Of a stretch of 64,000 nucleotides of DNA, positions 48,845 through 58,969 are shown piece by piece; the stretch's first letter is position 1; every line of letters begins with the position of its first letter. The DNA comes from Pelagicoccus enzymogenes (GTDB lineage Bacteria; Verrucomicrobiota; Verrucomicrobiia; Opitutales; Opitutaceae), in contig NZ_JACYFG010000002.1 in NCBI RefSeq assembly GCF_014803405.1, positions 310,001-374,000 of the forward strand, read 5' to 3'. A program made the position numbers and the translations under genes. The notes under the pieces are model-generated. The model had not been told where the DNA came from. It saw only the letters and a list, made by a program, of their open reading frames with translations, and did not search any database.

Positions 48845-49987
48845 TTACCAGCGATATTTTTTCCGCATGCGGATTCTTAGGAGGATGGAAGCAAGAGCGA
48901 TACCAGCTACGATAACCAGGAACACAAAGGCAGTGCCGTACTGCATGCGCTCGGTGTATTCGTTTTGCGGGATCTTGGCGCTCACTACGTAGATGTGATA
49001 CGGAAGGGCCATCACGCCCTGGAAGAAAAAGTCGGACCATTTCTCCAGGCCTTCCCATGGAAGCTGGTCGCGCATCGCATAGGCCGCCGTAAACATGATC
49101 GGAGCGGTTTCACCCGCGACCCGAGCCACACCGATGATGGAGGAGGTCAAAATCCCCGGCATCGCGTAAGGCAAGACGTTGGTGCGAATGGCCGTCCACT
49201 TGCTGGCCCCCAATGCCAGGGACGCTTCGCGCAATCCTTGTGGAATCGCCCGCAAGGACTCTTCGCTCGCCGAGATGATGACGGGCAACACCATGAACGC
49301 CAAGGTGAAGCAACCCGCCAACAGCGAGACGCCCCAGCCAAACTTGTAGTAGAAGCCGGTATTGCCCAACTCCGTGAAGGTAGCGGCCGCGTCCTGCTGG
49401 AACGCGAACTGGGGAGCAGCCAACACGAAGAAGCCGACCCCGAAAATTCCGAATACGATGGAAGGGACTCCCGCCAAGTTCAGGATGGAAAGTCGAATCG
49501 TATTCAAGGTCTTGCCTGGCTTCGAGTACTCGCTGAGGAAGATGGCGCTGAGCACGCCCAGCGTCAGGGCGATCGCCATGGCGCCCAAGACAAGCAACAC
49601 CGTGCCCACGATACAGGGCCAAATGCCGCCTCCCGAGTACGCGTAGGTGACCGTATCGATCTCGAGGCCCTTCTCCTCCTCGAAAGCTCGGAAATTCGTA
49701 TCGCTCAGCTCGTACTTCTCACCTTCGTGCTCGAAAACGTGCAAAGTCTGGGGAGCCTCGGTGAGGAATTCCACATTCACGAAGGGAAACTCCGTTTGGA
49801 ACACCGTCTGGCTTCCTTTGTAGAAAATCGTCAGAAAGATAACCGAGGCGCAGAGCAGGATGAAGTAAGTGCTCAGGCGAAAAAGCCAAAAGACCGCTTT
49901 CTCCGTGGACTTGGCTTTGGAAGGTTTCTTGTGGAAGCCGAGCCCTTCTTGTGGGCGGCTCTTGCGTACTGTGGCGGTTGCTGACAT
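48845..49987 (-). CDS. pstA: Phosphate ABC transporter permease PstA
   Basis: The 380-residue inner-membrane protein has six membrane helices and the BPD-transport EAA loop ([22 protein letters not shown]). A periplasmic insert of about 80 residues follows the first helix, longer than in E. coli PstA (296 residues). It forms the phosphate channel with PstC. Spacing to pstC is 9 bp and to pstB 1 bp, so the genes are tightly co-translated. Confidence 0.95.
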
Positions 49988-49996
49988 CGTTCTGCC

Positions 49997-51589
49997 TTAG
50001 CCTCGAGAAATCTGGTACTTCAGAACGATCTTCTGCGCCAGGTAGTTGATTAGGAGAGAGAGTAGGAAGAGCACCATGCCGACCATGAAAAGAGCCCGGT
50101 AGTGGATGCTTCCGTTAACGACTTCGCCAAGCTCCTGAGCGATGATGCCCGTCATCGTATGCACTGGCTCGAAAAAGGCCCCCAGACCATGGGTGAAATC
50201 GGGAATCTCGATGCGATTTCCCGCGCAGAGCAAGACCACCATCGTTTCGCCAATCACTCGGCCAAAGCCCAGGAGCACGGCGGAAATGATGCCGGAAAGC
50301 GAGGTCGGCACGATGATACGCATCGTCGTCTGCAAGCGGGTCGCGCCCATGGCCAGCGAAGCTTCCTTGAAAGCCTTGGGCACGTTGTTGATAGCGTCCT
50401 CGGCCAAGGTGAAAATCGTAGGGATAGCCATCAGGGCGAGCAAGCAACCGGCCGTGAAAGCCGTTAGGCGCTCGCTGATCGGAAACATGTCGAAGCCCGA
50501 GAAAATAGCCCATCCGGAAGCTTGACGGACAAACTCCCCGAACACGGCGATGCCGAAAAAGCCGATCACTACGGACGGTATCGCGGAAATGAATTCGATG
50601 TATGGCTTGATGAAGTTTTGCTCCGCGGGCGTGGCCACTTGGTTGATGTAAATGGCAGCTCCCACTCCCAACGGAATGGCGATGACCATGGCGATCGACG
50701 CCACAAGCAGAGATCCTGTGAATAGCGGAAGGATTCCGTACCAGTCCTGAATCGAGGAATTGGTGACCCAGTCCTTACCGAAAACGAACGAGGTGAAGGC
50801 CGTTGACATGCCAACGGGTTCATCCGGACTCCACTCGGCAAGTCTCGTTTCGTAACCATCCATCTCATCGACGAACATGAGGGCGAGCTGCCGGAAGCGC
50901 TGCATTTTTTCGTCCAAGCTCTCGACCCCGATGGTCGGCAGATCGCTGGTGAGCTCACGGATTCCAGCTTCCAGCTTGTCGTTGATCGCGATGAAGTCCG
51001 ACTCCCCTTCCCTGATCATTCCAACGAACATGCTGAGATCCACGTCCAAGACTTCCACTTCCGCGGCTTCTTGCACTCGGCCCAGCTCGAGAAGGTTTTC
51101 CCGGTGCTCGCGGTAATTGGCAGCCTCCACGAACATGTTTCGAGCCCCGATCGCCACCTCGTTCATCTCGAGCACATATTCGCGAAGCGGATATCCCAAG
51201 TCTTCGAAGTCGTAGATGAAGTCTTCGTAAGCCGCCATTTCCGCCTTCGCTTCAGAAAACGGTATTCCCTGATCTCGCAAGAGAGTGGCATGCTCGCTCT
51301 TGATGGAATTGAGATACTTGTTGAGCTCAGTGAACGCAGAGCTCTCTTGCTTCATAATCTCGACGTACTCGAGCCCAGACTCCCTGTAGAGCTCGATCTC
51401 GTGTCGGTATTGACCGAAGAAGCCAGATCCCTCCTTGAAAAGGAAGAAGGTAATCAGGGCGAGGACGATGATAGACGCCAAGGCGTTACCGCCAAAAAGG
51501 CCCTTGAGGGCTTGGTCCTTGTCCAGGCCGAGGAAGCGCCTCCTGCGAGAGTGCAAATCGTAGCGATTGGTCTGTGCTTCGTTGGTCAT
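49997..51589 (-). CDS. pstC: Phosphate ABC transporter permease PstC with a large periplasmic insert
   Basis: The 530-residue permease has a first helix near residues 35-55, then a hydrophilic, helical insert of about 200 residues, then the standard five-helix PstC core beginning with TAFTSFVFG and including the EAA loop FKEASLAMGATRLQTTMRII. E. coli PstC is 319 residues, so the extra mass lies almost wholly in the insert. It resembles the elongated PstC of some Verrucomicrobiota and may contact PstS or the envelope. It is the first gene after a hairpin that follows pstS. Confidence 0.93.
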   Translation of the reverse strand: MTNEAQTNRYDLHSRRRRFLGLDKDQALKGLFGGNALASIIVLALITFFLFKEGSGFFGQYRHEIELYRESGLEYVEIMKQESSAFTELNKYLNSIKSEHATLLRDQGIPFSEAKAEMAAYEDFIYDFEDLGYPLREYVLEMNEVAIGARNMFVEAANYREHRENLLELGRVQEAAEVEVLDVDLSMFVGMIREGESDFIAINDKLEAGIRELTSDLPTIGVESLDEKMQRFRQLALMFVDEMDGYETRLAEWSPDEPVGMSTAFTSFVFGKDWVTNSSIQDWYGILPLFTGSLLVASIAMVIAIPLGVGAAIYINQVATPAEQNFIKPYIEFISAIPSVVIGFFGIAVFGEFVRQASGWAIFSGFDMFPISERLTAFTAGCLLALMAIPTIFTLAEDAINNVPKAFKEASLAMGATRLQTTMRIIVPTSLSGIISAVLLGFGRVIGETMVVLLCAGNRIEIPDFTHGLGAFFEPVHTMTGIIAQELGEVVNGSIHYRALFMVGMVLFLLSLLINYLAQKIVLKYQISRG

Positions 51590-51692
51590 GTGCTTGGAGG
51601 ATTGAGACAGTCAGTGCTGTTACAGGTACAATCGAGTTCAATCGCAAACCGTTTTCGTAACACGATTGCGCGTCGTTCGACAGAGGCTGCCC

Positions 51693-51732
51693 AAAAAAGA
51701 CGGCGTCCTCAAAGGAGCTCGAGAACGCCGCC
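51693..51732 (-). terminator. Intercistronic terminator/attenuator between pstS and pstC
   Basis: On the minus strand GGCGGCGTTCTC pairs with GAGGACGCCGTC over 12 bp with two wobbles, followed by TTTTTT. It lies between the pstS stop (51756) and the pstC start (51589). Partial termination here would give more PstS than permease, as known in other pst operons. Confidence 0.7.
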
Positions 51733-51755
51733 AAATTGCAATTCGGAGACCTCTT

Positions 51756-52595
51756 CTAGAGTATGGAAATGAAGTGCACGTCCTTGACGATCTTCTGGCC
51801 TTCCTTGCTCAAGCAGAAGTCGACAAACTCCTTGACGATGGGACGCATCTCTGAGTTGCCGTTGTAATAGTAGTAGAGCGGACGAGCGAATGGGTAACTT
51901 GCCTTTTCTGGAGTAATTCCATCAACAGGGAGCGTCTTGATGCCTGGCGTGCTGAGGTAGGCGAGGCCCACGTAGCCAATTCCGTTCGGGTTCTTGGCAA
52001 CTTCGGAAGCGATTTGCTCGTTGCCTGCCATCTTCTGGGAAGCGGGGGCATAGTCGCGCTTGCGCAGGGCCATCTGCTGAAATACCGCATAAGTGCCAGA
52101 GGATGTGTTGCGGGTGTAAATCGAGATGTCGCCGGAAACCCCGTTGATCGAGCTCCAGTTTTCCACATCGCCGGTGAAGATCTTTTCTACTTCGCGAGAA
52201 GTGATTCCATCCATGGGATTCTTCTCGTTAGCTACGACAGCGATACCATCCTTGGCGACTTCGATCGGAGTCATCTTGACGCCCTTCAGAAGAGCCTTGG
52301 ACTCTTCAGTCTTCTTGGCTTCACGGGAAGACATGCCAAGGTCCGCAGTGCCGTCGATGACAGCAGCCACACCTGTAGAAGACCCTTCCGCAGCGATCTC
52401 GAAAATAACTTCAACTCCTTGCTTGGCCTTGATTGCCTTAAATTCTTCAGCCAGCTGCGGCACCATTTTAGCTCCGAGAGTATCAGAACCCTTGATTACG
52501 ATTTTTTCAGCTGCGAACGCATTTCCTGAGATACCGAAAGCGAGCGCCAAAGCGGCAAGCTTCAGGGAGATAGTTTTAGAGACCTTAGTTTTCAT
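51756..52595 (-). CDS. pstS: Phosphate-binding protein PstS
   Basis: The 279-residue periplasmic protein has a signal peptide ([21 protein letters not shown] to about residue 29). It has the PstS-family phosphate contacts KGSDTLG near the N-terminus, SSTGVAAV and TRNTSSGTY, and the C-terminal [14 protein letters not shown]. It delivers phosphate to PstCA. Upstream sits a Pho-box-like array. Confidence 0.96.
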
Positions 52596-52750
52596 TTCTG
52601 TAGTACAACTTGTTTGTAAGAGGTTTCAGACCACTGCATCAGCGGCATGCTTATTGAAAAGCCGAGCAGCCGACATTTGGACTGATTACGACAGCAGACG
52701 AATAGACCCGATCCCCGCTTAGCGAGTGGATTCTGTCGCCCGGACGAACT

Positions 52751-52794
52751 CTTCACTTGGCCGTAACACTTCCGTAACCTCGTCGTAACATTAC
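52751..52794 (-). promoter_or_regulatory. Pho-box-like array for pstS
   Basis: Three CGTAAC(A/C) units start at 52762, 52773 and 52784, exactly 11 bp apart, with a weaker fourth at 52751 (CTTCACT). Read toward pstS they are TGTTACG, GGTTACG, TGTTACG and AGTGAAG, each followed by 4 bp. The 7+4 period and TGTTAC core match PhoB boxes (CTGTCAT-type repeats) of other bacteria. The array lies 156-199 bp upstream of the pstS ATG. Confidence 0.75.
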
Positions 52795-52976
52795 TCCCAT
52801 TATCGGCTTCGCAACGGTATCCAATGCCCCATGACAGAGCGCTCAGATCCGCTCCAGCTGGTTTCAGAAAGGCGCGAATGACACACGAATAACAATGTTA
52901 CAGCGTCAGCTCCTTTGTGACATCTGCGATTCGTTTCTGTGACATTGAAGGATTTTCCCTAGATTTCCGCCCTTTT

Positions 52977-52998
52977 TGTTACGGCCGCGTTACGTTTG
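52977..52998 (+). promoter_or_regulatory. Pho-box-like pair for the divergent porin
   Basis: TGTTACG at 52977 and CGTTACG at 52988 are 11 bp apart with 4-bp spacers, followed by a weaker TGTAGTT at 52999. They have the same orientation relative to the porin as the other array has to pstS. The pair ends 58 bp before the ATG. Two TGTGACA elements at 52916 and 52938, 22 bp apart (twice the period), may extend it. Confidence 0.65.
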
Positions 52999-53056
52999 TG
53001 TAGTTTTCGAGTTATCGGATTGCCCAATCAAAAAAAACAGGCTCATCAACGAATCC

Positions 53057-54211
53057 ATGGACAAACTCACAGACCTCGTAATCACAGCGCTAGCAGCTGG
53101 CATCATTTTGTCCGTCCCAACCGCTTCAGCGGCCGACGGAGAAAGCAGCTGGGCTGACACCCTTAAATCCATGGGTAAAGTCTACTCGGACAAAAACAAT
53201 CCCTCCATCCAGGAGGTTAAGTTCTTTGGTCGCGTACACCAACAGTGGAACTATTCGGACGGCGAGAGCGCCGGCAACGACTTCAGCGGAAACGGCGACG
53301 AGCTGCGACGCCTCCGCGCTGGCGTATCCGTCAAGTTCCTCGACGGCTTCAAGGCTCTCGGCCGCGCCAACTTCGAAAAGGGCGGCTTCCGCGACACGAG
53401 CATCGGCTACAGCAGCTTCGACGAGCTCTATGTGGACTACAGCAAGGACGGCCTTTTCGGTTTCGACGAGGCAAGCATCGGCTACGGTCGCTACAAGGTT
53501 CTCTTCGGCGGCGAAGAACGGGTCTCTTCCAAGAAGATCAAGACGGTCGAACGCAGCAACATCAACAACCGCTTCGGCAGCCTTCGCCCAACCGGCATCG
53601 TACTCAACGGCGAAAAGAACGACGTTAACTACGTTTTTGGAATCTTCTCCACCGAGAGCGATTCGGAAACCTTGGCAGGCTGGTCCGACGGTACTGCCTT
53701 CCAGGCAGGCGTTGAGTTCGACGCAATGGAGGGAAGCGTAACTGCTGACTTCATCTACGCAGACGATTCCGCCAACGACCAATCCGTCTTCGACTTCGAC
53801 TGGGCCACCTCGCTCACCTACAACCGTACCTACGGCGACGTTAACGTGCTTGCGAACGTCACCTACGGCAACGAGGGCAGCGAAGACATCTACGGCTTCG
53901 TCGTCGTTCCGAGCTTCTACATTACCGGCAAGCTCGAAGCCGCATTTCGCTACCAGTACGGCCACTCTACCGACCAGACAGGCGTTCCCAAGAGCAGCAG
54001 CAGCCGTGGACTACGTCGCGTCGCTCGCAACGACGGAGTGGGAACAGGCTCCGGCGACACCAACCACACGCTTTACGCAGGACTCAACTACTACATCGAA
54101 GACGACTACGTTAAGATCATGACTGGCGTCGAATACGAATCGATCGACGGAGCTCCCGGGCTCGGAGTAGAAGGAGTCACGTTCTGGGCCGCCTTCCGCA
54201 GCTACTTCTGA
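53057..54211 (+). CDS. OprP/O-like phosphate-selective porin
   Basis: The 384-residue outer-membrane protein starts at the ATG at 53057, which begins a signal peptide (MDKLTDLVITALAAGIILS) ending about residue 27; a longer frame upstream is polar. The mature part is a beta-barrel with FFGRVHQQWNYSD near the start, GRANFEKGGF, and a terminal Phe (AAFRSYF). The fold suits the phosphate-selective porin O/P family of anion channels. It is divergent from pstS and shares a regulatory region with Pho-box-like repeats, so it is probably induced by phosphate starvation. Confidence 0.88.
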   Translation: MDKLTDLVITALAAGIILSVPTASAADGESSWADTLKSMGKVYSDKNNPSIQEVKFFGRVHQQWNYSDGESAGNDFSGNGDELRRLRAGVSVKFLDGFKALGRANFEKGGFRDTSIGYSSFDELYVDYSKDGLFGFDEASIGYGRYKVLFGGEERVSSKKIKTVERSNINNRFGSLRPTGIVLNGEKNDVNYVFGIFSTESDSETLAGWSDGTAFQAGVEFDAMEGSVTADFIYADDSANDQSVFDFDWATSLTYNRTYGDVNVLANVTYGNEGSEDIYGFVVVPSFYITGKLEAAFRYQYGHSTDQTGVPKSSSSRGLRRVARNDGVGTGSGDTNHTLYAGLNYYIEDDYVKIMTGVEYESIDGAPGLGVEGVTFWAAFRSYF

Positions 54212-55916: not shown

Positions 55917-56480
55917 CTAGGACTCGGCCTTACCCTCGCCCTCGTCCACGTCTTCGGAAGCAGACGCATCCTCGTCCCCGTCCGCTCCGTCAACCAGGAA
56001 GGCGAGCTTCTCTTCGTTCTCCAAGAAAAACTTCGGATCCAAGTCCACCGCCGGCACCAGAAACTCCCGCTTGGACGGTCGGTGCACATAGCGCGTATAC
56101 TTCCGCGTCCGCGCCTTGACCCTGAGCACGCGGCGACGCTCCAGCATCAGACCGAGGAAATGCTTCAGCTCCGCATTCTCCTCGGAAAGCGTGCCTTCCT
56201 CCTCCCCCTCGAAAAAGCTGATGAACAAGTTGTCCGCCGTCAGCTTCAGGGCCTCCTCCTCTTCCTTCCCATCCGTAGGCTTCGGCTTGAACTTCTGAGT
56301 CCAGCGACACAACACCTTGCCTGGCATTTCCACCTTGTTGGCCTCGGAAATGAGCACGTCCACCCGCACCAACTCGCCCTCCTCGGTCTTCACCAAAGCG
56401 CACGCGATCGCGTCATCCTTCGCAAATTCCACGTGGGAGTGAAAAGACTTACGAGCGATAGGGGTGATATGCCATTCCAT
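55917..56480 (-). CDS. Conserved-looking hypothetical protein with acidic C-terminus
   Basis: The 187-residue soluble protein starts at the ATG at 56480 (MEWHITPIARKSFHSHVEFAK); seven more residues upstream are possible. FHSHVEFAKDDAIAC and VRVDVLISEANKVEMPGKVLCRW suggest a folded N-terminal beta domain. Residues about 150-187 are highly acidic (DGADGDEDASASEDVDE). No family was recognised. It is divergent from the isochorismatase-fusion gene. Confidence 0.65.
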   Translation of the reverse strand: MEWHITPIARKSFHSHVEFAKDDAIACALVKTEEGELVRVDVLISEANKVEMPGKVLCRWTQKFKPKPTDGKEEEEALKLTADNLFISFFEGEEEGTLSEENAELKHFLGLMLERRRVLRVKARTRKYTRYVHRPSKREFLVPAVDLDPKFFLENEEKLAFLVDGADGDEDASASEDVDEGEGKAES

Positions 56481-56554: not shown

Positions 56555-57820
56555 ATGCTCTTTAAGGTCAGGCTCTTACGGGACGAGACCGTTCCGCAAC
56601 TCAACCGATACCAACCTGGCATGCAACTAAACCGCAAGGTTCGCCCCGAAATCCTAGACTCCGTCGCCCTGCTCGTAATCGACGCCCAAGACGTCTTCAT
56701 CGACGCCATCAGCGACAAGGATACCTTCAAGAAACGCGCCGCCTTCGCCATCGAAGCCGCCCGCTGCCTGAAGATCCTCACCCTGTTCACGGAGCAAGCG
56801 CCCGAAAAGCTGGGCCGCACCAACAGCGAACTTTTCAAGCTCGCCCGCAACCCGCGGGTCTTCAGCAAGCAAACCTTCTCCGCCCTCGGAGCGACCGGCC
56901 TCGATCGATTCCTGCGCGAAAAGGAAATCTACAATCTTCTCATCGTCGGCCTCGAAACGCCTATCTGCGTCTACCAAACCGGCCTGCAAGCCACCGACGA
57001 AGACATCGACACCACCTTCCTCAGCGACTGCCTCGGAGCTCGCCGCCCGGAAGACCAAGCGCCGGTGCTCGACGCGCTGCGCAGCATGGGCTGCCAAGTC
57101 CTGCCTTCGGAAACCATCTTCTACTCCCTCCTTTCCGACACTCAGAACCCCTACTTCCGTGCCTTCACTCAAATCGTAAAAGCGTTCGGAGCGGAGGATT
57201 TCGATCTTCAAGCCTACCTCAAAAACCGTCCCGCCGAGGTGGACGAAACACCCGAGCGCCCGCAAAAACCGCAGCGTGACGACCGCGGCGAGCGAAGCGA
57301 TCGCTCCGAAACGCAAGACAAGCCGTCCCACAACGCCCCCCAAGACGGGCGCGAAAACAAGCAACAAGACGACGGGAATCCAGACGAACGCCGCAATCGC
57401 AAGCGCAGCCGCCGTCGCGGGCGCGGGCGCGGTCGAGATCGACGCGAAGGCGACTCGGATTCCTCCGGCGAAAAACAACGCGAAAACCGCCAAGCTTCCG
57501 GCGAGCGCCCACAACGCTCAGAACACACGGGCAACAAGCCTCAGCCGCAAAACGAATCGCCCGCGCCGAAAACTCCGGAGCCCCAAGCCGCCGAACGAGC
57601 GACAGCGCCCAAAGCGGAGCCCAAGGAGAAGGCTTCCGACGCTCCAAAGCCACCCGCTCCGGACACCTCGGTAGAAAAAGAGCCCGCCAAGAAAGCGCCC
57701 GCGAAAAAGGCAGCTAAGAAGGCAGCCAAGAAAGCGGCGAAAAAGGCAGTAAAGAAGGCTGCCAAAAAAGCCGCAAAAAAGGTAGCGAAGAAAGTCGCGA
57801 AACAGCCTGAGACCGAGTAG
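56555..57820 (+). CDS. Isochorismatase-family hydrolase fused to Arg/Gly-rich and histone-H1-like tail
   Basis: The 421-residue protein has a cysteine-hydrolase domain (about 1-225) with a likely Asp43-Lys105-Cys138 triad: LLVIDAQDVFID, RVFSKQTFSALG and GLETPICVYQTG. Residues about 226-370 are charged and disordered, including RKRSRRRGRGRGRDRREG near residue 290. Residues about 374-421 are (A)KKA-type repeats resembling histone H1 or bacterial H1-like DNA-binding tails. Isochorismatase relatives normally are 180-220 residues with no tail. The tail suggests binding to nucleic acid or another polyanion; the substrate is unknown. A second in-frame Met at 56621 is a possible start. Confidence 0.85.
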   Translation: MLFKVRLLRDETVPQLNRYQPGMQLNRKVRPEILDSVALLVIDAQDVFIDAISDKDTFKKRAAFAIEAARCLKILTLFTEQAPEKLGRTNSELFKLARNPRVFSKQTFSALGATGLDRFLREKEIYNLLIVGLETPICVYQTGLQATDEDIDTTFLSDCLGARRPEDQAPVLDALRSMGCQVLPSETIFYSLLSDTQNPYFRAFTQIVKAFGAEDFDLQAYLKNRPAEVDETPERPQKPQRDDRGERSDRSETQDKPSHNAPQDGRENKQQDDGNPDERRNRKRSRRRGRGRGRDRREGDSDSSGEKQRENRQASGERPQRSEHTGNKPQPQNESPAPKTPEPQAAERATAPKAEPKEKASDAPKPPAPDTSVEKEPAKKAPAKKAAKKAAKKAAKKAVKKAAKKAAKKVAKKVAKQPETE

Positions 57821-57934: not shown

Positions 57935-58969
57935 CTACGCAAGCGCGTCGAGCGGCAAGCTAGGCGCGATATCAAGCAGCTCCGCTCCACGTGATTGCTT
58001 TTCAAATACATGGCTGAAAGCGATCATTCCGGCATTGTCGCCGGTGTGGCAACGCTTCGCCAAAAGGCTCTGCACCCTTCGCTTCTTTCCTAGGGATTCG
58101 AAACGAGCCCGCAGCACGCTATTGTTGGAAACGCCACCCGAAAGCCCCATACTCTTGTAGTCACCACGCTTCAATGCCTTGTCGCTCTTGCGTATCAATG
58201 CATCCACTACGGCTTCTTGGTAGGACGCGCAAAGGTTGTTGATATCCGCTCCAGCCGCTTCTGGGCCCATTTTTTCGACTTGGTAACGTAAACTCGTCTT
58301 CAAGCCAGAAAAGCTGAAGTCCAAGTGCGGCTTGCCCACCAAACCTCGTGGAAACTGATAGGCTTTCACATCACCGCCAACCGCGAGCTTCTCCAGTTTC
58401 GGCCCTCCCGGGTAACCCAGCGCCAGCAGCTTCGCGCCCTTGTCCAGAGCCTCTCCCGCCGCATCGTCGATCGTTTGCCCTAGGATGGAAAGGCTTCGGT
58501 CCTTTTCGATTCGAGCCAAAATCGTGTTCCCCCCTGAAACGATGAGAGACAGATGCGGAAGCAATTCGTCCGCTAGCCGATGATCGAAAGCCGCAGGCTG
58601 CTCCTCGTAGACGGAAACGAAAGGCGAGTGGGCGTGCGCTCGCAGATGGTTCACGCCGAAAACCGGGACTTTCCACGCTAGCGAAAGCGCGTTGGCAACC
58701 GCTAGTCCCATCGCCAGGCAAGCCGCTAGGCCCGGCCCCGTCGTTACCGCGATTTCGTCAACGCCTTCAAAACCGACCTCCCGGCGAGCTGCCTCAAGCA
58801 GCGGGGCGAAATTGTTCAGATGCTCGCGACTGGCCAAGTCAGGAACCACGCCACCGTATTCAGCGTGCAATGACACTTGGCTGCTGATCCACTCGCCACG
58901 CAGGCCGACGCCGCGCTCGAAAAGAGCGAGGGCTGATTCGTCACAGGAGCTTTCGATGGCCAATAGCAT
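57935..58969 (-). CDS. tsaD: tRNA N6-threonylcarbamoyladenosine transferase TsaD
   Basis: The 344-residue protein of the Kae1/TsaD family opens with MLLAIESSCDESALALF. It carries the metal ligands H108 and H112 (NHLRAHAHSP), the nucleotide loop SGGNT, and the late DNAGM (CHTGDNAGMIAF). It transfers the threonylcarbamoyl group to A37 of tRNAs reading ANN codons. It is convergent with the fusion hydrolase gene and divergent from the MidA-type gene. tsaB, tsaC and tsaE are not in the window. Confidence 0.96.
   Translation of the reverse strand: MLLAIESSCDESALALFERGVGLRGEWISSQVSLHAEYGGVVPDLASREHLNNFAPLLEAARREVGFEGVDEIAVTTGPGLAACLAMGLAVANALSLAWKVPVFGVNHLRAHAHSPFVSVYEEQPAAFDHRLADELLPHLSLIVSGGNTILARIEKDRSLSILGQTIDDAAGEALDKGAKLLALGYPGGPKLEKLAVGGDVKAYQFPRGLVGKPHLDFSFSGLKTSLRYQVEKMGPEAAGADINNLCASYQEAVVDALIRKSDKALKRGDYKSMGLSGGVSNNSVLRARFESLGKKRRVQSLLAKRCHTGDNAGMIAFSHVFEKQSRGAELLDIAPSLPLDALA

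Follow-up and report, generated by a model that had tools for sequence, protein, structure and literature searches.

A MAR1/ISOC-type isochorismatase-fold hydrolase with a disordered basic tail in Pelagicoccus, and the RNA-related gene cluster of its relatives

Introduction

Why should a cysteine hydrolase with an acidic domain carry a long, strongly basic, disordered tail? The question is raised by a gene in a 64,000-nucleotide stretch of the genome of the marine bacterium Pelagicoccus enzymogenes (the window, as this whole stretch is called below), in which positions 56555-57820 of the + strand form an uninterrupted open reading frame of 421 codons. MAR1/ISOC/YcaC-type isochorismatase-fold hydrolases are widespread, including in people, and for many of them we know of no substrate. 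An initial annotation of this frame proposed an enzyme tethered to the nucleoid or to ribosomes/RNA. The relatives of the domain, the tail and the neighboring genes are considered in turn.

The Hydrolase Domain and Its Relatives

Judging from alignments with tailed relatives, the protein probably starts at the ATG at 56621, because the sequence MQLNRK/MQISRK is common to the four compared congeners, none of which has an upstream methionine in this frame; the eight residues that precede this methionine recur in the nearest congener alone. With the start chosen from conservation in this way, the gene occupies 56621-57820 (+ strand, stop included) and encodes a 399 amino acid isochorismatase-fold cysteine hydrolase with a disordered basic tail. 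The possibility that the reading frame is an artefact was rejected, given its PF00857 match and its matches in genomes of the family.

Isochorismatase (PF00857) is the single Pfam domain in the protein (E 1.3e-26). Its score of 94.2 bits, against a curated cut-off of 27, together with an Asp-Lys-Cys triad places the protein in this superfamily, and so the hydrolase domain named in the initial annotation is confirmed. The domain comprises residues 1-192 (56621-57196, + strand), has a pI of 5.2 and has a MAR1/ISOC/YcaC-like fold. The triad consists of Asp21 (56681-56683), Lys83 (56867-56869) and Cys116 (56966-56968), all on the + strand and numbered from the internal methionine at 56621. All three are invariant in the 80 aligned homologue rows, as are, among others, E58, Q59, P61, G65, E112, Q119, D136, R141 and D145. 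Presumably these three residues have the catalytic role of the Asp-Lys-Cys triad in the isochorismatase family, where it is of the amide/ester hydrolase type. The invariance of the triad argues for catalysis.

The best sequence-profile matches and the best fold matches both fall in one subgroup, which we call MAR1/ISOC-type; the grouping of the matches, with the link to ISOC, is our own. The MAR1 name reportedly rests on an early biochemical study. The subgroup includes chains from Caenorhabditis elegans (2b34), Ustilago (8rl0), Phytophthora (8rkz) and Leishmania (1x9g/1xn4). The profile of the hydrolase matched solved sequences with E values of 5.3e-35 (2b34_A) and 8.3e-35 (8rl0_A), and fold comparison gave Z scores of 25.7-24.7 for 8rkz, 2b34 and 8rl0, followed by YcaC and the Trypanosoma and Leishmania proteins. 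The D-K-C triad together with the motifs TEQ.P.KLG.T and ETPICVYQT is present in our alignment rows as well. However, the three nearest chains are only 25-28% identical to it, and at 192-220 residues the solved MAR1/ISOC chains are too short to have a tail of the Pelagicoccus type.

Several more specific names were rejected on their NCBIfam scores: nicotinamidase (23.5 bits, cut-off 174), biuret hydrolase (31.1 bits, cut-off 370), RutB (14 bits, cut-off 378) and YcaC (12.5 bits, cut-off 310). The YcaC proteins of Escherichia coli and Pseudomonas do share the fold of the hydrolase (Z about 23), but they are only 18-19% identical to it.

Another isochorismatase-like protein, CrcA (PA1677), acts in post-transcriptional control. 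It does so by binding Crc, and the available portion of the paper does not mention a tail on CrcA (PMC10213629). The CrcA entry, 8CIB, is absent from the 35 solved sequences that match the hydrolase profile at E <=1e-5.

The Basic Tail

The tail that follows the domain has 207 residues, a net charge of +19 and a pI of 10.1, compared with 5.2 for the domain. An AlphaFold2 model, built from 65 of the 80 aligned rows, gives a confident hydrolase domain (block pLDDT 93-98 for residues 11-200), a stretch predicted to be disordered (block pLDDT below 60 for residues 221-360) and a 32-residue helix at residues 362-393 that covers a Lys/Ala-rich tract (block pLDDT 58-79). Thus the disordered extension of the initial annotation is supported by the low pLDDT, and its length of about 195 residues is corrected to 207.

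Three features can be distinguished. A proximal motif beginning DFDLQAYL (residues 193-213; 57197-57259, + strand) contains a short predicted helix at 196-201 and is similar in several tailed genera. An Arg/Gly-rich block, ERRNRKRSRRRGRGRGRDRR (residues 256-275; 57386-57445, + strand), has 12 arginines in 20 residues and a net charge of +11; an RG-like block had been noted in the annotation, and this sequence replaces the RGRGRGR given there. The C-terminal Lys/Ala (KKA, histone-H1-like) tract (residues 355-399; 57683-57817, + strand) has a net charge of +17 over 45 residues and nine KKxx units, rather than the 12 or so first reported. Being disordered and built of repeated Lys/Ala units, the tail is of the bacterial H1-like style that had been suggested for it. 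The positive charge is carried by the Arg/Gly block and the KKA tract; each linker has a net charge of -3, as does the proximal part.

Comparisons between Pelagicoccus congeners indicate that, in all five pairs, conservation is higher in both blocks than in the spacers. For example, the window protein and its congener L004 are identical at 19 of 20 positions in the arginine block and at 39 of 45 in the KKA block, and at 16 of 42 and 33 of 78 positions in the tail linkers. In the other four pairs the KKA block is identical at 30-39 of 44 positions and the linkers at 21-39%, with arginine block identities of 12/19, 16/19, 13/20 and 15/20; the KKA tract is self-similar, and part of its aligned identity is therefore built in. 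By simple Nei-Gojobori counts, dN/dS in these other pairs was 0.09-0.41 in the arginine block versus 0.11-0.25 in the domain. The KKA tract had a pS of 0.78-1.08, above the 0.37-0.51 of the domain, which may come from units paired out of register and not from true synonymous divergence.

As grounds against its own reading, the initial annotation had named a general lack of the tail among homologues together with an origin of this tail by local repeat expansion. The first point holds for most homologues, as described below. The second was rejected, because the KKA units use a mixture of codons and tails occur in nine genera. For a possible copying of the KKA tract from the Rho gene of the same genome, the results were mixed. 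The DNA identity of the two tracts looked high against a codon-shuffle null (0.828, null mean 0.754, 1 of 500 shuffles as high). It did not once the tracts had been trimmed and their 12-base units were shuffled intact (0.75, null mean 0.76, equaled or exceeded in 1406 of 2000 shuffles).

Distribution of the Tail

A match to the hydrolase (E <=1e-10) is present in 77 of 120 genomes of the family, and the combination of domain and tail recurs within the clade, in 17 of the 77, representing nine genera. It is therefore more than a chance occurrence. The 17 are all five sampled genomes of the genus (that of the window and four others) and, outside the genus, G012, G057, G048, G101, G078, G008, G032, G070, G036, G033, G013 and G029. 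The other 60 appear tailless; 55 of these were fetched and have 0-10 residues past the domain, and five were judged by the room in the open reading frame only. In a sample of the phylum, 149 of 387 genomes match the hydrolase. Seven long-frame loci outside the tailed group (L156-L162) have 0-6 residues past the match, and most of the remaining phylum matches, judged by their open reading frames, show little room for a tail. Of eight named loci, seven are tailed and one, L106, stops with the domain; three of the seven, Pelagicoccus mobilis (L100), L103 and L105, are additions to the 17, and the other four are apparently the same as G089, G110, G063 and G008.

The 17 tails vary widely in composition, in length (70-256 residues, the shortest being that of G070, which is truncated by a contig end) and in net charge (-22 to +27). 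An arginine-rich patch (at least 9 Arg in 20 residues) is present in nine of them, namely the five of the genus and those of G036, G033, G013 and G029. The tails of G013 and G029 are net acidic overall (-13 and -22), yet they retain the patch. Eight or more KKxx units are present in only six, the five of the genus and G008. Therefore, the long Lys/Ala tract looks like a later elaboration.

In a quick tree built from the domain alone, from which G029 was left out, the 16 tailed rows form one cluster with a support of 88; a tailless long branch, L023, falls inside it. Eleven of the rows form a single branch (support 97) that lacks the gene cluster described next; we refer to it as the Pelagicoccus branch.

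The Gene Cluster in Relatives

The comparison of neighboring genes covered up to 14 kb in 20 relatives and the window, and short flanks in the rest; at most loci these flanks are about 1.2-1.5 kb and may conceal neighbors that are further off. In most of the tailless orthologues the gene order is a divergent orphan gene (c1), an ApaH/Pnkp-like phosphatase, the hydrolase and a YhaM-like 3'-5' exoribonuclease, with many of the gaps, measured between match ends, near zero. Among the 55 tailless loci of the family, 49 have the YhaM-like gene on the same strand, no more than 400 bases downstream, and six have none nearby; the phosphatase (a metallophosphoesterase) adjoins the hydrolase in 44, both partners are present in 43, and c1 is within 1300 bases of the hydrolase in 47. 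Of nine loci from other families of the order, seven have an adjacent phosphatase and seven have c1; a YhaM-like gene was found in none of the nine within about 1.5 kb of the hydrolase. Five tailed relatives keep the cluster wholly or partly, with a YhaM-like gene in four (the fifth is at a contig end) and an adjacent phosphatase in four. A YhaM-like frame also lies directly 3' of the tailed hydrolase of G029. As a separate observation on this cluster, which is seen in L126, L131 and related loci, a Rho gene is located 2.7-4.9 kb upstream in five of the 21 loci that were compared over long flanks.

Three members of the exoribonuclease family match nearly the full length of the YhaM model NF010007 (E 1e-43 to 4e-50) with scores of 149.5-170.7 bits, below the cut-off of 460, hence the name YhaM-like; one member has a Pfam HD domain above cut-off and an OB-fold match below cut-off. 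Three members of the phosphatase family are likewise below the NCBIfam cut-offs (92-104 bits versus 176 for the ApaH-type model NF001204 and 89-112 versus 750 for Pnkp), and the one member scanned against Pfam has Metallophos (PF00149) above cut-off.

The Pelagicoccus branch displays a different pattern. In none of its 11 genomes does either partner gene adjoin the hydrolase, and genome-wide searches at E <=1e-8 found neither a YhaM-like gene (0 of 11, versus 10 of 11 comparison genomes, the exception being G070, which is 75% complete with the locus at a contig end) nor the phosphatase (0 of 11, versus 11 of 11). The YhaM family model gave the same picture (0 of 11 versus 9 of 9). We chose the comparison genomes ourselves, most of them in the knowledge that they carry the cluster. 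Their high counts therefore cannot serve as an independent estimate, and the zeros are the result. Taken with the tree, this pattern indicates that both partners were lost jointly, apparently in one event on the Pelagicoccus branch, while the hydrolase and its tail were retained. Any link between the tail and the loss is unproved, because this is a single event on one branch and the tail predates it on the tree. No paper in our literature search had isochorismatase and YhaM together, and none had isochorismatase and Pelagicoccus together.

Of the 11 genomes of the branch, 10 retain the remaining member, c1, next to the hydrolase. In the window it is the divergent, conserved neighbor at 55917-56480 (- strand) and encodes a 187 amino acid orphan protein with an acidic C-terminus. 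No PDB match to its fold was found at E <=0.001, and against Pfam two families each matched one member among 50. The last 45 residues have 12-17 D/E in the five Pelagicoccus rows versus 4-10 in the other 11. One idea, suggested by composition, is that this acidic end could be complementary to the basic tail of the hydrolase; it remains an idea because c1 accompanies tailless as well as tailed hydrolases, including those of other families of the order.

On the other side, the convergent downstream neighbor in the clade without the cluster is TsaD (t6A tRNA modification; 57935-58969, - strand in the window), which we do not think is part of the system. Farther away in the window, 48845-54208 contains two BPD_transp_1 permeases, a PBP-like binding protein and a Porin_O_P match; these transport genes look like a phosphate uptake system.

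The neighbors in the relatives argue for a role in RNA-linked metabolism, and they bear on two explanations that differ over what the domain does. The domain could itself be a ribonuclease of the MAR1 kind with the tail as its substrate-binding part; the closest solved relatives include proteins with this name, and a YhaM-like exoribonuclease is in the cluster. However, the triad is that of the amide/ester hydrolases of the superfamily, and CrcA of the same superfamily showed no RNase activity when assayed, according to the Discussion of that paper (PMC10213629). This explanation is very improbable. Alternatively, the domain might be a regulator or adaptor instead of an enzyme, one that, like CrcA binding Crc (PMC10213629), works through a partner, which the tail would bring to RNA. 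The gene order with the phosphatase and the YhaM-like gene does suggest a common task, but the triad and its surrounding motifs are invariant in all 80 rows, including those from genomes without the partners, and so we give this explanation hardly more credence than the previous one.

KKA Tracts in Other Proteins

The hydrolase is not the only protein of its genome with such a tract. Searching the genome with the tail (E <=10) revealed at least four further KKA tracts, in topoisomerase III, Rho, a ribbon-helix-helix protein and pyruvate phosphate dikinase (PPDK; E 5.2). Four is a lower bound because low-complexity queries search poorly. The ribbon-helix-helix protein (227 amino acids; L109:1132-1812, in the P. 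enzymogenes genome at about 533151-533276 of contig C50) has a C-terminal half that consists almost entirely of KKA/PKKA repeats and is a candidate nucleoid protein. In PPDK, another metabolic enzyme that thus bears a tail of the H1-like kind, the tract is N-terminal (L110/L165; contig C6:299700-299999, - strand). It is nearly identical in four of the five sampled genomes of the genus, and the fifth has a shorter, Lys-rich N-terminus. Among seven other genomes searched, the N-terminus was read in five; a shorter Lys-rich stretch is present in four of these, including G003, whose hydrolase is tailless, and absent from G008. Since PPDK is a metabolic enzyme, such tails need not imply nucleic-acid metabolism.

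Three known types of protein invite comparison. The Rho of the same genome has, in addition to its KKA tract, a charged, Gly/Asn-rich N-terminal part, and in Bacteroides a disordered Rho region is described as driving condensates in the available text of two papers (PMC13269538, PMC10284900). Rho differs in being an RNA helicase, whereas the folded part of the tailed protein is a metabolic-type hydrolase. The histone-H1-like proteins AlgP/PhaF also have a long, disordered Lys/Ala C-terminal tail (PMC9239181, in part). However, their repeat unit is KPAA, and that of the hydrolase is KKAA, attached to an enzyme domain and accompanied by the extra arginine/glycine block. Actinobacterial TopA is also an enzyme with C-terminal lysine repeats, which are held to stabilize DNA binding and processivity (PMC7398561, in part), but the substrate of TopA is DNA itself and that of the hydrolase is presumably either a small molecule or a group linked to RNA. 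Thus, with AlgP/PhaF, TopA and the KKA tracts of the same genome at hand, the earlier statement that the combination lacked any described precedent goes too far where the type of tail is concerned. Among the literature matches listed, which comprised titles and the beginnings of abstracts, no paper reported a tail of this kind on an isochorismatase-fold protein.

These tracts also lend some support to two other explanations of the tail. The Lys/Ala tail could work like the KPAA tail of AlgP/PhaF, on DNA or on polyphosphate granules and not on RNA. This would fit the KKA composition and the presence of the same kind of tract on the ribbon-helix-helix protein and topoisomerase III; in addition, the part of the AlgP study at hand describes KPAA peptides as binding DNA and the AlgP KPAA domain as required for the spacing of polyphosphate granules (PMC9239181). 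However, of the tailed relatives in which the cluster is kept, G036, G033, G013 and G029 have in common an arginine-rich patch and not a long Lys/Ala tract, and the genes clustered with the hydrolase in relatives are RNA-related. We consider a nucleoid or polyphosphate tether unlikely. The part of the initial annotation that pointed to the nucleoid is accordingly weakened, and a nucleic-acid tether as such is still plausible, with the cluster of the relatives pointing to RNA.

The other explanation is that charged, low-complexity tails are simply a habit of this lineage, present on many proteins and aiding solubility, abundance or crowding with no specific target. The tracts on Rho, topoisomerase III, the ribbon-helix-helix protein and PPDK agree with this, as does the wide variation in length, composition and net charge among the 17 tails. 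A neutral tail, however, would not be expected to have two blocks that exceed the linkers in similarity in each of the five congener pairs, and this explanation also seems unlikely to us.

What the Tailed Hydrolase May Do

The explanation that we prefer, although we would put it a little short of an even chance, is that the protein is an active MAR1/ISOC-type hydrolase of RNA-linked metabolism and that the tail is a multivalent polyanion grip on RNA, ribosomes or condensates. The domain would act as a cysteine hydrolase within RNA-linked metabolism. The Arg/Gly block and the Lys/Ala helix, carried on flexible linkers, would grip a polyanion at several points, and in this way the tail could retain the enzyme on RNA, or else on ribosomes or in condensates. 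In the relatives this enzyme is encoded together with an ApaH/Pnkp-like phosphatase and a YhaM-like exoribonuclease; on the Pelagicoccus branch both partners were apparently lost and the hydrolase kept, with the Lys-rich part of the tail long in Pelagicoccus itself. A basic tail argues for retention on a polyanion, and triad, neighbors and tail together suggest that the enzyme is probably kept on RNA, at the site where its substrate would be formed or attached. Of this, the domain, the triad, the recurring tail blocks, the predicted disorder, the cluster and the absence of both partners are computed results, and catalysis, RNA binding, the substrate and a functional tie of the tail to the lost partners are inferences. 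The KKA tracts on Rho, topoisomerase III and the ribbon-helix-helix protein provide supporting context, and CrcA, which binds Crc, sets a precedent for the involvement of an isochorismatase-like protein in post-transcriptional control (PMC10213629, in part). Counting against the preferred explanation are the KKA tract on PPDK, the net-acidic tails of G013 and G029, the modest identity of the arginine block in the other congener pairs, the loss of the partners as a single event that the tail predates, the scores of the partners below NCBIfam cut-offs, the tailless loci and other families with no YhaM-like gene nearby, and the lack of RNase activity in CrcA.

A more specific version is a good deal less probable. 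The cluster might be an RNA-end maintenance module in which the phosphatase and the YhaM-like enzyme trim RNA ends and the hydrolase removes from RNA a group held by an amide or ester link, such as a modified base, an acylated end or a cap derived from a nucleotide. The Pelagicoccus hydrolase would then work alone, recruited to RNA by its own tail. If this were true, it would be the first enzyme of the superfamily known to us that acts on an RNA-linked group.

Conclusions

In conclusion, the tailed hydrolase is an unusual variation on known parts and not a new system, and the gene cluster with the apparent joint loss of the partners is a more informative finding than the tail itself. An enzyme tied to RNA handling, by gene order in the first place and then by its tail, would be a tractable clue to the role of this subgroup of hydrolases. 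The family also offers a natural comparison between tailless hydrolases with RNA-processing partners, tailed ones with these partners and tailed ones without them.
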